The notes below the pieces were generated by a model that worked only from the letters and a program-made list of their open reading frames with translations, did no database searches and was not told the origin of the DNA. A DNA stretch of 11,621 nucleotides from Candidatus Abyssobacteria bacterium SURF_5 (GTDB lineage: Bacteria; Abyssobacteria; SURF-5), in the NCBI GenBank assembly GCA_003598085.1, contig QZKU01000049.1:1-11621 (forward strand). The letters are read 5' to 3'. Position 1 is the stretch's first letter; the number at the start of each line of letters is the position of its first letter. The position numbers and the translations under genes are program-made. Positions 4,597-11,621 of the stretch are shown in pieces.

Positions 4597-5976
4597 CTAA
4601 CTCTTTAACAAGTGCGGGAAATCCTCTTCAAGAATCGGCTTGAGCTCCTGCAGCGTCTCCGTCAGAGCCCCGACCGCCTTTTCGATTTCCTTTGCGGTCA
4701 TGGGCGTCGAGACGCAGTACATCTGCCGGCCGGCTGGAAAGATGCCGCGCTGCAGCATACACAGATGAAGGTGCATCGGAATCGGACCCGCCCCGAACAG
4801 GCCGGTGATGCTGTCGCGCGCATTGCGGATGGGCCGGTCCGTCATGTGCAGGTTCACCAGCGAGCCGAGGCCGGTCGCCTGCCCCCGAATTCCGATTTCA
4901 TCGAAGGCAATGTTAAACCCCTTCCGCAAGGCGTCGCCGGCCGCATTCAGTCTATCATAGACCTGCGGGGTGAGTTCACGCATGCAAGCAAGCCCCGCCG
5001 CTATCGTGAGCGGATTCCCGCTGAAGGTGCTCGCGTGCCACATGAAATCGGCCGTTTCGGGGCTGAAAAGCTGCATGATATCTTTTCGTCCGCCGAATGC
5101 CCCAATGGGCAGACCGCCCCCGATGATTTTCCCCATCGCCGTCAGATCGGGCTCGATCCCCGCCATGCCCTGAAGACCGGCCGGTGAAAGTCGGAGCGTG
5201 ATGACCTCATCGAAAATGAGGAGAACCTCGTTTTCTTTGGTTATCCGGCGCATCTCCTGCAGATAACCGGGCATCGGAGCGATCATGCCGAGAGCGCCCA
5301 TCATTGGTTCCATGATGATTGCACACAATTCATCCCGGTGTTTCTTAATCAGCTTCTCGGTGATCTCCGGTTCGTTAAATGGGGTCACAATGACGCCGTC
5401 CACCGAACTCAGCGGAACCCCTTTGTCGGGCTGCAGAGTTATCGGCTCCTCGAAGGGGCCGGCTTCGGTGGGAATCGCAACGAGACTGATCTCGCCAATG
5501 TCGTGGTTTCCGTTGTAGCCGCCCTCGATCTTCATGACCTTCTGCTTTCCAGTGAAGGCGCGGGCCGCGCGGATTGCCATCATCGTGGCCTCGCTGCCGG
5601 AACTGCAGAAACGGAGTTGTTCGACGGAAGGTACGCGCTCGCAGATCAGGCGCGCCAACTCGAATTGAGACTCGGTCGGAGCGGCATAGGCCGTTCCCAG
5701 TTTCACCTGGTCGGCCACAGCCCCCACCACTTTCGGATGAGCATGTCCGAGAATAAGCGTGGTGAAATTGTTCATGAAATCGATATACTCGTGGCCGTCG
5801 GCATCATATATGCGGCAGCCGGCGCCCTTCTTCATGAAGACCGGATAGGGAAGGTAATGTGCAGTGGTGCGCGTGTCGCCGCCTGGCATGTACCGGCGCG
5901 CCGGCTCCATTAACTGCTTCGACTTCTGCGACCATTGAAAATACGACTCCTGAATTTCCTCGAAGTTTTTCGCCAT
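4597..5976 (-). CDS. Class-III PLP aminotransferase, glutamate-1-semialdehyde aminomutase-like
   Basis: A cytoplasmic pyridoxal-phosphate enzyme of fold type I, class III, 459 residues, complete. Visible landmarks: the N-terminal MPGGDTRT (30-37); SSGSEATMMAIRAAR (125-139), the cofactor-phosphate region; EGGYNGNHD (151-159); IFDEVIT with D256, which should pair with the pyridine nitrogen; MGKIIGGGLPIGAFGG with K283 as Schiff-base lysine. The lysine neighbourhood is closest to glutamate-1-semialdehyde 2,1-aminomutase (HemL), but the protein is longer than usual HemL (about 430), has YNG where HemL has YHG, and sits between two hydrolase genes with no haem genes. I therefore read it as a HemL-like aminotransferase or aminomutase of other specificity, perhaps for a beta- or gamma-amino acid. 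Its ribosome-binding site (AGGTGAGG) runs across the stop of the preceding alpha/beta hydrolase gene, nine bases away, implying coupled translation. Confidence 0.9.
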   Translation of the reverse strand: MAKNFEEIQESYFQWSQKSKQLMEPARRYMPGGDTRTTAHYLPYPVFMKKGAGCRIYDADGHEYIDFMNNFTTLILGHAHPKVVGAVADQVKLGTAYAAPTESQFELARLICERVPSVEQLRFCSSGSEATMMAIRAARAFTGKQKVMKIEGGYNGNHDIGEISLVAIPTEAGPFEEPITLQPDKGVPLSSVDGVIVTPFNEPEITEKLIKKHRDELCAIIMEPMMGALGMIAPMPGYLQEMRRITKENEVLLIFDEVITLRLSPAGLQGMAGIEPDLTAMGKIIGGGLPIGAFGGRKDIMQLFSPETADFMWHASTFSGNPLTIAAGLACMRELTPQVYDRLNAAGDALRKGFNIAFDEIGIRGQATGLGSLVNLHMTDRPIRNARDSITGLFGAGPIPMHLHLCMLQRGIFPAGRQMYCVSTPMTAKEIEKAVGALTETLQELKPILEEDFPHLLKS

Positions 5977-7235: not shown

Positions 7236-7901
7236 CTATTTGTTCTCCGACTTTTCGAATTCTCGCCGGAAAGCGTTCACAACTCCATTGACGATGTTTT
7301 CCGGTCGCGATACTACCGGAGAATCCACGACCAATGCTGTAAGCAAGCCTTCAAAAGAAACAAACAGCATCTGAACCAGCAGATCGCGTCGTCTCTTTTT
7401 CATGTGCGGATACTGCCGTTTAATTTCGGGCACGACGATTTCCTCGAATTCGCGGTCGGCCTGGCTGTGCATTGCCTTGAAGTCAGCATCCACAAGAGCC
7501 ATGCTCATGTATTCGCGCGTGATGCCTCGCAGAAGAGGGTCGACCGCGAGAAAATGAAACTGGCGCTCGAGCGCCTCGCGCAGCCCTTCAAAAAAATCCT
7601 CTTCGCTTGCCAATGCTTCCGAAAGGAGACGGTTCGATTTTTCCTGGCGGAACCGGTTCAGCTTCATCAGCAGTCCTTTCTTGCCGCTGAAATGATGATA
7701 GACGGCGCCCATGGTGAGGCCGGCCCGCCGTGCGATTTCACGAATCGAGGCAGCCTGGAACCCGCTTTCGGCAAAACATTCCATCGCTGCACGGAGCAGC
7801 TTTCGGCGGGTCAGTTCCGCCGCCTTTTCATGCAAAGCCTTGGGGTCTTCATCGAAGTTTAACAGGTAATCGCGCGACAGCGGATTCCGGGCGTCTGACA
7901 T
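7236..7901 (-). CDS. TetR/AcrR-family transcriptional regulator
   Basis: A DNA-binding repressor (less often an activator) of the TetR family, 221 residues from this start. The N-terminal part carries the family's three-helix DNA-binding domain: LLRAAMECFAESGFQAASI (35-53), then the helix-turn-helix IREIARRAGLTMGAVYHHF (53-71) and FSGKKGLL. The remaining 140 or so residues are the variable, mostly helical ligand-binding and dimer domain, so the inducer cannot be guessed. The frame is open well upstream, but a consensus promoter at 7929-7957 overlaps that extension, so only ATG 7901 and ATG 7919 (adding MIDNNV) are sensible starts. Neither has a Shine-Dalgarno sequence. The gene is divergent from the dehydratase operon and upstream of the hydrolase operon on the same strand, a position suited to controlling both and itself. 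Confidence 0.9.
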   Translation of the reverse strand: MSDARNPLSRDYLLNFDEDPKALHEKAAELTRRKLLRAAMECFAESGFQAASIREIARRAGLTMGAVYHHFSGKKGLLMKLNRFRQEKSNRLLSEALASEEDFFEGLREALERQFHFLAVDPLLRGITREYMSMALVDADFKAMHSQADREFEEIVVPEIKRQYPHMKKRRRDLLVQMLFVSFEGLLTALVVDSPVVSRPENIVNGVVNAFRREFEKSENK

Positions 7902-7912
7902 AACATTGTTAT
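7900..7912. promoter_or_regulatory. Palindrome over the TetR start codon (candidate operator)
   Basis: ATAACATTGTTAT is an exact inverted repeat (6-base arms, 1-base centre) covering ATG 7901 and lying about 10-22 bases downstream of the start point expected for the promoter at 7929-7957. A further GTTAT half-site occurs at 7926-7930. This position would suit autorepression. The sequence is AT-rich and short, so chance is possible. Confidence 0.35.
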
Positions 7913-7928
7913 CTATCATAGCAGCGTT

Positions 7929-8192: not shown

Positions 8193-9320
8193 ATGGGAGC
8201 CTTTGAAGAGTTAGCGGAAGTATCCAATGAGTTGCAGAACCGGTTCGTGCACAAATGGAAGGAAGGGGGGAAAAAGGTCGTCGGCTACGTCTGCTCTTAT
8301 CTGCCGGAAGAGATACTCTTTGCGGCGGACATCCTGCCATTCAGGATCACGGGCAGCGGGTGCGGCGAGACCGCTCTGGCGGATTCCTACCTGACGAGAG
8401 TAAACTGTTCCTTCTCGCGATGCTGTCTGGAATTGGCTTTGAGCGGGAAATACAGCTTTCTTGACGGCGCGGTTTTCGTGAATGGCTGCGACCATATCCG
8501 GCGCGCCTACGACAATTGGGCTGCCCATACCAGCGCGCTTCCCTTCATGTATATCCTGCCGGTTCCACATGTGCTGACATCCGACGCCTTGAACTGGTAC
8601 CGCGAAGAAGTGAACAAACTGAAGGCGAGCCTCGAAGAGAATCTTGGGGTCAAAATTCCCGACGAAAAACTCAAAGGAGCGATTAAGACGTATAATGATA
8701 CGCGAAGTCTTCTTCAGAAATTGTATGACCTGAGGGCGAAGGATCAACCTGTTTTCAGCGGCGCAGACAAGATGGCCATCCTGGCGGCGGCAAGCCGGAT
8801 GCCGAAGGACGAATTCAACAAGTTATTGGCCGCCGCCCTTGATGAGTCTGAAGGCAACAAGAGAGGCGCCGATGCGGGAGTGCGCCTGCTCATTGCCGGC
8901 AGTGTTATGGATGACGCCGACTTTATTCGGAATGTGGAAGACCTGGGGGCGGTCGTCGTGGCGGACGCTCTCTGCTATGGGGCGCGGACTTTTTCAAATT
9001 TGACGGACGAAACCGTTGACCCAATCGAGGCCCTTGTTCAGAGGTATTTCCATCACGTACCCTGCCCGAGGATGGCGGGAGAATATCACAGCCGGCTGGA
9101 ATTTGTGAAGCAGCAGGCGGAGCGCGGCCGGGTTGACGGCGTCATACTGGAGTACATAAAATTCTGCGATTTGCACGGGACCGACAATGCTCTGCTCAAG
9201 AACGATCTTGAGAAGGCGGGCATCCCGGCGCTCGAACTCGAGCGCCAATATGGTCCGCTGGCCGACGCAGGCCGTGTTCGCACGCGAGTGCAGGCTTTCC
9301 TGGAAAGAATCCGGAGATAA
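8193..9320 (+). CDS. 2-hydroxyacyl-CoA dehydratase family, small subunit (HgdB/BcrC-like)
   Basis: One of two iron-sulfur subunits of a 2-hydroxyacyl-CoA dehydratase-type enzyme (HGD-D family), 375 residues, the usual length for the beta subunit. In the family each subunit holds a [4Fe-4S] cluster by three Cys; here the likely ligands are one Cys of NCSFSRCC (C72, C77, C78), C99 in NGCDH and C325 in KFCDLHG. The C-terminal IPALELERQYG and RTRVQAFLE are also family-typical. The enzyme takes one very low-potential electron from the activator and removes water from a 2-hydroxyacyl-CoA through a ketyl radical. The start is chosen at ATG 8193, with AAGGA eight or so bases upstream; a longer frame beginning at TTG 8100 adds residues of non-family character. 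First gene of the operon, four bases before the large subunit. A benzoyl-CoA-reductase role is less likely because only one activator gene follows. Substrate unknown. Confidence 0.88.
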   Translation: MGAFEELAEVSNELQNRFVHKWKEGGKKVVGYVCSYLPEEILFAADILPFRITGSGCGETALADSYLTRVNCSFSRCCLELALSGKYSFLDGAVFVNGCDHIRRAYDNWAAHTSALPFMYILPVPHVLTSDALNWYREEVNKLKASLEENLGVKIPDEKLKGAIKTYNDTRSLLQKLYDLRAKDQPVFSGADKMAILAAASRMPKDEFNKLLAAALDESEGNKRGADAGVRLLIAGSVMDDADFIRNVEDLGAVVVADALCYGARTFSNLTDETVDPIEALVQRYFHHVPCPRMAGEYHSRLEFVKQQAERGRVDGVILEYIKFCDLHGTDNALLKNDLEKAGIPALELERQYGPLADAGRVRTRVQAFLERIRR

Positions 9321-9324
9321 CAAC

Positions 9325-10680
9325 ATGCAAAACGACGCCATTCCACGCATTGTCGAGGCTTTCGAACAGGCTTCGATGCTGCCTGAAGACCTAAATCTTG
9401 AGTCGCCCGAGATGAAAACGATCCTGGATTTTTTGCCGGAGACCAGACGCAACACGTTTCTCGCGATGGCGAAAGACCCGGACGTAAGGAAAATGTCGGC
9501 TGTGTTCAACCGCGGATTGGGCAAGTACTGGAAAACTCTGCTTTCGGCACGGGACTCGGGGAAGAAGGTGGCTTTTGTCCCGTTTAATTTCTCGCCCGAG
9601 ATTTTTCATGCGCTCGATATCATTCCCGTATGCGTCGAGGTTCTGACAACGATGGCGCTTCCCCTGGAAGAAGGGATCGAAGGCTATTTAGACCTTTCGG
9701 TCGAGCGCGGGCTTCCCGATACAATGTGCTCGGCGCAGCGCGGAGTAATCGGGCTTTTTGAAGCAGGCGTGCTCGAGAAACCCGACCTGCTGGTCAATGG
9801 CGCCCTTGGTTCATGCGATCCGAATTCCAAGGCATTCGAGTACATGGCCGAGAAATTCGACATCCCGGTCCTGTACCTCGACATTCCTTATTATTCCGAT
9901 AAGCGGGCGCTCGACTACTACGCGAAGGGCTTCAAGGACGTGGTGGCAGCGATACAACAGATGACCGGCGCCAAGCTCAAGGCAGATCGCCTCCGCGAGG
10001 TCGTCGAGAACACGAATAAGGCGTCGGAGCTTTTTTACGAAATTGCAGAGTTGAAGAAGAACATTCCAAATCCGGTGCCGAACTATTACAACATGCATCA
10101 TACCGGCGCCAAGCTGACAATGGCGGGTACAATGGACGCGATTGAATATTATCAGACAGCTCTTGCGATATGCAAAGAACGACTGAAGCAAGGAAAACAC
10201 GTGCTGCCTCGGGAAAACATCCGCCTCTTTTTCATCTATACTCCTTACTATTTCGATAATTCGATCTATTCGTGGTTTCAGGAAGAAATCGGCGTTTCCT
10301 GGATCATGGACGTGCTCAACGCATTCGATTTCAATCCGTTCATCGACACCTCGAGCGTGGATAGCATGCTCTATGGACTCGCGGAAGAGATGTTCAATCT
10401 GCCGATGACACGCCAGCTCAAGGGCGGCTGGAATGCACCCGACAACTGGCTGTTCGACGTTCTCTACTATGTGAAGACGTATAAGGCCGACTGCTGCGTT
10501 TTCTCCGGTCATACCGCCTGCAAGCAGGCGTGGGGCGTATATCGCCTGGTGGCGGACGAGGTGAAACGCCAACTCGGCGTCCCCTCGCTCCGGCTCGAGG
10601 GAGACGGCTGGGACTCGCGCATCACGCCGATGTCGGTCATTAAAGAGCAATTCGAAGAATTTTTTGCCACGATTCTGTAG
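9325..10680 (+). CDS. 2-hydroxyacyl-CoA dehydratase family, large subunit (HgdA/BcrB-like)
   Basis: The partner subunit of the same HGD-D family, 451 residues, somewhat longer than its neighbour as expected for the alpha (HgdA/BcrB-type) subunit. Likely cluster ligands are C135 in DTMCSAQRG, C164 in GSCDPN and C399 in GHTACKQ; an extra adjacent pair, C390-C391, lies just before the third. Near the C-terminus, PSLRLEGDGWDSR (420-432) corresponds to the IP.L..E.D..D.R motif of this subunit type. An N-terminal extension of about 80 residues precedes the first conserved block (KVAFVPFNFSPEIFHAL, 81-97). ATG 9325 follows GGAGA by seven bases; that ribosome-binding site lies inside the last codons of the small subunit, so translation is probably coupled. 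The frame can be read further upstream but only through the previous gene. With the small subunit it should form the heterodimeric dehydratase; acyl chain specificity cannot be read from sequence. Confidence 0.87.
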   Translation: MQNDAIPRIVEAFEQASMLPEDLNLESPEMKTILDFLPETRRNTFLAMAKDPDVRKMSAVFNRGLGKYWKTLLSARDSGKKVAFVPFNFSPEIFHALDIIPVCVEVLTTMALPLEEGIEGYLDLSVERGLPDTMCSAQRGVIGLFEAGVLEKPDLLVNGALGSCDPNSKAFEYMAEKFDIPVLYLDIPYYSDKRALDYYAKGFKDVVAAIQQMTGAKLKADRLREVVENTNKASELFYEIAELKKNIPNPVPNYYNMHHTGAKLTMAGTMDAIEYYQTALAICKERLKQGKHVLPRENIRLFFIYTPYYFDNSIYSWFQEEIGVSWIMDVLNAFDFNPFIDTSSVDSMLYGLAEEMFNLPMTRQLKGGWNAPDNWLFDVLYYVKTYKADCCVFSGHTACKQAWGVYRLVADEVKRQLGVPSLRLEGDGWDSRITPMSVIKEQFEEFFATIL

Positions 10681-10692
10681 GAGTTATCAACG

Positions 10693-11469
10693 ATGATTGT
10701 TGCGGGATGCGATGTCGGCTCACTCACGGCCGAAGCTGTGATCATGGATAATGGCACGATCTGCGGCTCAGAAATTATCCGGGTTCGCCCGCGACCGGAG
10801 CAATCGGCGCGCGACGTGATGGATAAACTGCTCGGCCGGCTGGAGATGACGTACGATGATATTATGTACTGTATCAGCACGGGCTATGGGCGCGAGACCA
10901 TCTCATTTGCGAACGACAATATCAGCGAGATCTCGTGCCACGGGCGCGGCGCGCACTGGCTCAATCCGTCGATCCGGACCGTTATCGACGTCGGCGGGCA
11001 GGACTGCAAGGCGATTCGGGTAGACGAGCGCGGCCTGCTTGTGGATTTCGTCATGAACGACAAGTGCGCGGCGGGTACCGGCAGATCGCTTGAGCTCATG
11101 GCGGAAGCGCTCGGCATAGATATCGGCGATCTGGGGCCGCTTTCGCTTAATGCAACTACATCACTGGTCATCACCAACCAGTGCAGCATTTTTGCCGAAA
11201 TGGAAATCCTGCATTTTCTCTGCGAGGAGAAGAATCTCGCAGACATAGCGGCAGGCGTAAATGAAGCGATGGCGAGGCGCGTCAAGATGCTGGTGGGCAA
11301 GGTCGGAGTTAAGGAAGAGATCGGAATGACCGGAGGCGTCTCCAAGAATATCGGGGTCGTGAAAGGTCTCGAGCGCATGCTCGGCAAGGAGTTTGTTCAA
11401 TTTCAGGAAGACCCGCAGATAATCGGAGCGCTTGGCGCCGCCGTCTTTGCGTCTGAAAAAGTGAAGTAG
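10693..11469 (+). CDS. ATP-dependent activator of 2-hydroxyacyl-CoA dehydratase (HgdC-like)
   Basis: An ASKHA-fold ATPase, 258 residues, which as a homodimer holds one [4Fe-4S] cluster between its subunits and uses ATP to deliver a low-potential electron to the dehydratase. Motifs in order: phosphate loop CDVGSLTAEAVIMD (6-19), STGYGRE (62-68), SCHGRGA (81-87), second phosphate loop DVGGQDCKAIR (99-109), NDKCAAGTGRSLE (122-134), NQCSIFAE (162-169), adenosine motif MTGGVSKNIGV and the terminal QIIGALGAAVFA. C125 and C164 are the expected cluster ligands; their spacing of 39 equals that of C127 and C166 in HgdC of Acidaminococcus. The ATG follows AGGAG (10679-10683), which starts within the stop codon of the large subunit. 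It is the last gene of the operon. The cluster has one activator rather than the heterodimeric pair of Thauera-type benzoyl-CoA reductase. Confidence 0.93.
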   Translation: MIVAGCDVGSLTAEAVIMDNGTICGSEIIRVRPRPEQSARDVMDKLLGRLEMTYDDIMYCISTGYGRETISFANDNISEISCHGRGAHWLNPSIRTVIDVGGQDCKAIRVDERGLLVDFVMNDKCAAGTGRSLELMAEALGIDIGDLGPLSLNATTSLVITNQCSIFAEMEILHFLCEEKNLADIAAGVNEAMARRVKMLVGKVGVKEEIGMTGGVSKNIGVVKGLERMLGKEFVQFQEDPQIIGALGAAVFASEKVK

Positions 11470-11507: not shown

Positions 11508-11544
11508 GCCAGAATATCGGAACTAAATATAACGACATAAATAA

Positions 11545-11573
11545 TTGCGCATATTTCTCTTTTCTGCTATACT
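11545..11573 (+). promoter_or_regulatory. Probable promoter for the gene starting at 11595
   Basis: TATACT (11568-11573) matches the -10 consensus at five of six positions, with TTGCGC (11545-11550) 17 bases upstream matching the TTG core of the -35 box. The surroundings are AT-rich. The expected start near 11580 lies just before an AAGGAGGA ribosome-binding site (11583-11590), leaving a very short leader. Confidence 0.5.
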
Positions 11574-11594
11574 CAAACCAGAAAGGAGGAACTC

Positions 11595-11621
11595 ATGCGC
11601 AAACTGGAAATCAAAGATGCT
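11595..11621 (+). CDS. Start of a further gene, cut by the window edge
   Basis: Only nine codons are visible (MRKLEIKDA), too few to recognise. The start is convincing because AAGGAGGA ends four bases before the ATG and a promoter lies just upstream. It appears to be its own transcription unit, separated from the dehydratase operon by a 125-base gap with a hairpin and its own promoter. Confidence 0.6.

Follow-up and report, generated by a model that had tools for sequence, protein, structure and literature searches.

An HGD-D subunit and activator gene cluster in Candidatus Abyssobacteria bacterium SURF_5 probably encodes part of an uncharacterised double-cubane reductase system

The window, a stretch of 11,621 nucleotides, is the entire contig C49 of the genome of Candidatus Abyssobacteria bacterium SURF_5 (G000; 5.1 Mb, 145 contigs), which shares its family with Candidatus Abyssobacteria SURF_17. 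It contains three consecutive genes (Table 1) encoding a small and a large subunit of the HGD-D type and an ATP-dependent activator (activator 1). The genes are real and correctly placed, and their PF06050 and PF01869 scores lie far over the Pfam cut-offs, as the original prediction of two HGD-D subunits with an activator had it. By Pfam and NCBIfam, this combination of two HGD-D subunits and an ASKHA-type activator places the locus in the radical enzyme family of benzoyl-CoA reductases (BCR) and 2-hydroxyacyl-CoA dehydratases (HAD). The top Protein Data Bank (PDB) match of the small subunit is BzdN (8s02_B, E 1.6e-51), with which it shares 31-37% identity. Activator 1 scores 231 bits with TIGR00241 (cut-off 125), matches 4eht best (E 2e-63) and also MbdQ (9gai_D, E 5e-61), and keeps the cysteine motifs NDKCAAGTG and NQCSIFAE for a bridging [4Fe-4S] cluster. 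These genes are probably the 5' section of a longer operon. Its product would be an ATP-driven double-cubane reductase similar to BzdNO, from an uncharacterised subfamily of the BCR/HAD family and related to the enzymes that cleave aromatic rings anaerobically. The original prediction is confirmed as an observation, and its interpretation is partly supported.

Table 1. Annotated features in the 3' part of the window.
Feature	Position	Strand	Basis
HGD-D small subunit, BzdN-like, 375 aa	8193-9320	+	Pfam PF06050, 312 bits
HGD-D large (catalytic) subunit	9325-10680 (ATG at 9325)	+	Pfam PF06050, 183 bits; family alignment
Activator 1, ATP-dependent, BcrAD_BadFG (BcrAD/BadFG type)	10693-11469	+	PF01869, 183 bits
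TetR-type regulator, divergent from the HGD-D genes	7236-7919	-	PF00440, 60 bits
Left end of multi-copy insertion element	11523-11621	+	34-bp repeat, start of transposase-like open reading frame

The two subunits are predicted to form a heterodimer that combines a complete [8Fe-9S] ligand set with a three-cysteine [4Fe-4S] site. In BzdNO, Cys36, Cys73, Cys100, Cys263, Cys293 and Cys327 of BzdN hold an [8Fe-9S] double cubane, a cluster previously seen in DCCP only (PMC11971306). All six residues align in the small subunit of the window, where C34, C72, C99, C261, C291 and C325 are the predicted ligands. The same set is common to the BZD references, DCCP and all seven small subunits read in the window's own genome, so that none of those seven looks like an HAD. 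Of these cysteines, the HadC, BcrC and MbdN types have no more than three or four, and at the six ligand positions the window reads CCCCCC versus PCCACC in HadC. For this reason the designation "dehydratase" given in the original prediction is not supported.

An HAD with a new substrate, in which the ATP-injected electron is recycled during a radical elimination of water, would share its Pfam families with the window, and the best match of activator 1 is indeed a 2-hydroxyisocaproyl-CoA dehydratase activator. HadBC/HadI (PDB 3o3m, 4eht) also resembles the window in fold family, in the large-subunit cluster cysteines and in the catalytic glutamate, which HadB has in common with it. However, two of the six double-cubane cysteines are absent in HadC, HadB retains an active-site tyrosine that is gone in the window, the HAD reaction is a redox-neutral elimination, and the scores with the HadB and HadC models (50 and 170 bits) fall far under the cut-offs of 750 and 700. 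The HAD activator is a homodimer, whereas relatives of the window have two activators. This alternative is judged quite unlikely.

In the large subunit, whose residue numbers are counted from 9319, the predicted [4Fe-4S] ligands C137, C166 and C401 align with BzdO Cys95, Cys128 and Cys380, which hold the active-site [4Fe-4S]-OH2 cluster (PMC11971306). In BzdO, Glu65 and His131 act as acid/base and Tyr97 lies on the thioester (PMC11971306). The catalytic glutamate is kept as E107, but Trp46, Tyr97 and His131 are replaced by N90, A139 and N169, respectively. The thioester tyrosine is found in nearly all sequences of the BZD, BCR, MBR and HAD side, but in none of the window-side sequences of the same alignment; the further large subunits encoded by the mini-CdhC cassette loci described below all lack it too. 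Because this residue is missing, the mode of substrate binding must differ from that of the known members. In two large subunits (L204, L206) a histidine stands in place of the third cluster cysteine (GHMGHKD and GHKGHKD), which suggests an altered cluster ligand in that sub-branch.

The loss of the CoA-thioester tyrosine across the whole clade would also agree with a DCCP-like reductase that acts on small, non-CoA molecules. DCCP/DCCP-R (Carboxydothermus; PDB 6eno, 7yyl) has an identical six-cysteine double-cubane signature and an ATP-driven activator. By contrast, DCCP is a pair of small-type subunits, with one HGD-D subunit and one activator, and the window encodes a small/large heterodimer whose relatives have two activators. 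The score with the DCCP model NF040772 (204 bits) is under the cut-off of 350, and the acyl-CoA dehydrogenase neighbours that recur among related loci, with a thiolase, a CoA ligase and a 3-hydroxyacyl-CoA dehydrogenase in single loci, argue against a non-CoA chemistry. A DCCP-like function is therefore regarded as rather unlikely.

Phylogenetic trees agree with a separate subfamily. Neither subunit falls inside a clade of known substrate among the references included, a set selected either by NCBIfam cut-off or by PDB sequence that does not contain HgdAB, LcdAB and FldBC. The small subunit groups with those of SURF_17, Meg22 and NC_groundwater (support 100/99), inside a 13-row clade (100/99) that is separate from BZD, BCR, MBR, DCCP and HadC, the only HAD reference in this tree. 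The large-subunit tree is divided by a 26/35 split (100/99), in which the window lies on the side without a characterised member. In an enlarged large-subunit tree, a quick tree with SH-aLRT support only, the window and every mini-CdhC-linked large subunit fall into one 42-row clade (SH-aLRT 99); locus L224 has no mini-CdhC. A plasmid tblastn search gave matches at 21-23% identity only.

The closest characterised arrangement is that of BzdNOPQ (Aromatoleum sp. CIB; PDB 8s02), which raises the question of a true class I benzoyl-CoA reductase of the BZD type. The original prediction had pointed out that the order small-large-activator is not that of hgdCAB; this order is real, but it is no anomaly, since it corresponds to bzdNOPQ. 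The resemblance of the small subunit to BzdN, the six retained [8Fe-9S] cysteines and, in the large subunit, the three [4Fe-4S] cysteines with the glutamate also fit such an enzyme. The large subunit, however, is only about 18% identical to BzdO, with the three active-site replacements given above; the bzdN and bzdO models yield 180 and 32 bits against cut-offs of 454 and 449, and supported branches divide the window from BZD in the trees. Moreover, G000, G001 and G002, in the window's genome family, contain no true 6-oxocyclohexene-carbonyl-CoA hydrolase (Oah; TIGR03200), which is weak evidence because several BZD genomes also score under this cut-off. A true BZD enzyme is very unlikely.

A second activator gene is present in all the closest relatives. 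In SURF_17, the Meg22 deltaproteobacterium and NC_groundwater_1539 the order is small-large-activator-activator, with activator 2 immediately after activator 1. In the window, the last ~100 bp belong to a mobile element with an inverted repeat at 11523-11556 (34 bp) and a transposase-like open reading frame that begins at 11595 (MRKLEIKDA...) and is interrupted by the contig end. The same repeat occurs at the ends of contigs C103 (L022), C104 (L141) and C119 (L027), which are identical up to the repeat and have differing flanks; these are right ends of one multi-copy element. The element breaks at least four contigs of the genome. Activator 2 lies directly after the element copy on C119, and the order C49-element-C119 is likely from synteny, because activator 2 directly follows activator 1 in the relatives. 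The single activator of the complete, self-contained enzyme that had been proposed is an artefact of this break.

The break also limits what can be said about a substrate pathway, as the window is a whole contig that ends in the element and the absence of pathway genes downstream cannot be judged from it. Among its nine scanned open reading frames no CoA-transferase, CoA-ligase, 2-hydroxyacid dehydrogenase or acyl-CoA dehydrogenase was matched (Pfam, NCBIfam), an earlier claim that holds for the window only. Past activator 2, C119 carries housekeeping genes, a thiolase gene and, in convergent orientation, an ammonium transporter gene, and no substrate pathway was found on this contig, whose join to the window is inferred. 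The suggestion that the substrate is new to the family still holds, because both subunits lie outside the characterised clades included and neither the window open reading frames nor C119 show a catabolic pathway next to the operon.

In a wider set of relatives the operon extends to small-large(-large)-activator-activator-mini-CdhC-CooC-like ATPase, with minor variations (L055, L056, L207, L210-L216 and L222; L211 starts at the large-subunit gene). Mini-CdhC is a protein of about 240-280 aa that matches PF03598 and aligns with residues about 333-517 of acetyl-CoA synthase (ACS) in the PDB. This corresponds to the middle domain, to which CoA binds in the carbon monoxide dehydrogenase-ACS complex (CODH-ACS; PMC12289521), while most of the A-cluster domain is missing. 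All 31 sequences keep the middle-domain tryptophan and end in CxxCx5C. The linked ATPase has CooC1 (3kje) as its best PDB match and keeps GKGGxGKT and CxC (21/21), the latter chelating metal in CooC1 (PMC3792862). Both proteins thus resemble parts of the CODH/ACS system (CdhC/AcsB, CooC1), but at about 260 aa mini-CdhC differs from the ACS beta subunit in size and in its position beside HGD-D genes. Across 290 sampled genomes mini-CdhC occurs in seven, all of them among the 11 with a window-type large subunit (Fisher 1e-11, or 8e-9 when the genomes of the window's family are collapsed into one); unlike these, the sampled BZD reference genomes contain none. In a second genome group (the phylum of G291), HGD-D genes lie within 6 kb of 21 of the 27 mini-CdhC loci, the other six being three contig-edge loci and three of a divergent subgroup. 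No description of this association was found in the open-access literature searched.

The divergent subgroup (L219, L220, L221) is located beside an acyl-CoA dehydrogenase and a CaiB-like CoA-transferase, with no HGD-D gene nearby. In the window genome the mini-CdhC/CooC pair is not alongside the operon but on the separate contig C121 (L136). There, as in SURF_17 (C77, L137), a HycB-like ferredoxin and a tungsten-type enzyme of the AOR family are encoded divergently from it; L206 has a third AOR neighbour. Full-length ACS was not found in the whole of G000, unlike in G001 and SURF_17, although mini-CdhC is retained.

The probable task of CooC and mini-CdhC is to provide or carry a metal (nickel) or a CoA-linked partner. 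The link could also mean that the HGD-D proteins do not themselves catalyse the reaction and instead inject electrons, driven by ATP, into a different metalloprotein (mini-CdhC, for example, or one that carries nickel or a corrinoid); corrinoid proteins are known to have ATP-dependent activators (PMC6739815). The large subunit, however, retains its full active-site cluster and catalytic glutamate, and mini-CdhC, in which most of the A-cluster domain is missing, does not occur in many HGD-D clades. Such a role appears improbable. Another idea, with a low probability, is that the clade forms a distinct class of ATP-driven double-cubane reductases that need a nickel-handling pair, in which the CooC-type ATPase would load nickel on or through mini-CdhC as a stripped-down ACS. 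If so, nitrogenase-like ATP-driven electron delivery would be joined to ACS-type nickel/CoA chemistry, with a substrate new for the family.

As to the preferred reading, a double-cubane reductase, ferredoxin would reduce the activator pair, ATP hydrolysis would push electrons one at a time via the double cubane to the cluster of the large subunit, and this cluster would in turn reduce a hard-to-reduce substrate. Enzymes of the BCR/HAD family carry out reductions past the normal biological redox window (PMC11971306). In L207, whose subunits are near the window clade, a POR/TPP 2-oxoacid:ferredoxin oxidoreductase pair and an FrhB-like protein lie upstream and could plausibly deliver reduced ferredoxin. 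As substrate, an acyl-CoA is probable, or else a hydrophobic compound that feeds acyl-CoA metabolism. An acyl-CoA somewhere in the pathway is likely, given the acyl-CoA dehydrogenases near nine loci, the 3-hydroxyacyl-CoA dehydrogenase in L056, and the thiolase and CoA ligase in L218. GMC flavoproteins occur in four loci, and in L059 (G001, 10835-13741) a TAT-signal type II DMSO-reductase-like enzyme, related to the ethylbenzene dehydrogenase alpha subunit (TIGR03479, 896 bits, under the cut-off of 985), separates the large HGD-D gene from the small one; these point, as a lead only, to hydrophobic alcohols or hydrocarbons. For a neighbour of ~220 aa in L139, L197, L198, L200 and L140 the label SCP2 was dropped, as it has no Pfam match.

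Several points weigh against the assignment as a double-cubane reductase. Neighbours differ between relatives, so that none of them names the substrate, and DCCP shares the six cysteines yet is without a known CoA substrate. With mini-CdhC and CooC on another contig, a joint function in the window genome is derived from the relatives. Structure predictions of both subunits from four-row alignments were of unusable quality (pLDDT 56 and 47), and reductase activity, metal content and substrate are all predictions from sequence. The group is widespread and uncharacterised, its active site is altered and its link to ACS-like and CooC-like proteins is conserved; it makes the purpose of double cubanes directly testable, and calls for caution in annotating such genes as 2-hydroxyglutaryl-CoA dehydratases.

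The TetR-type regulator is likely to control the operon, judging from its position, and TetR genes are also found upstream of the cassette in L055, L197 and L198. The genome has 16 HGD-D genes in all (contigs C68, C128, C49, C63, C85, C103, C53, C144 and C9), but only three stand-alone activators of the BcrAD/BadFG type, besides fused or distant ones. At the other end of the window, a 459-aa open reading frame (3-1382, +) is open at the contig start and has no Pfam or NCBIfam match. A class III aminotransferase gene (4597-5976, -) adjoins two alpha/beta hydrolase genes and is near glutamate-1-semialdehyde aminomutase, scoring under its cut-offs (371/398 and 359/527 bits).

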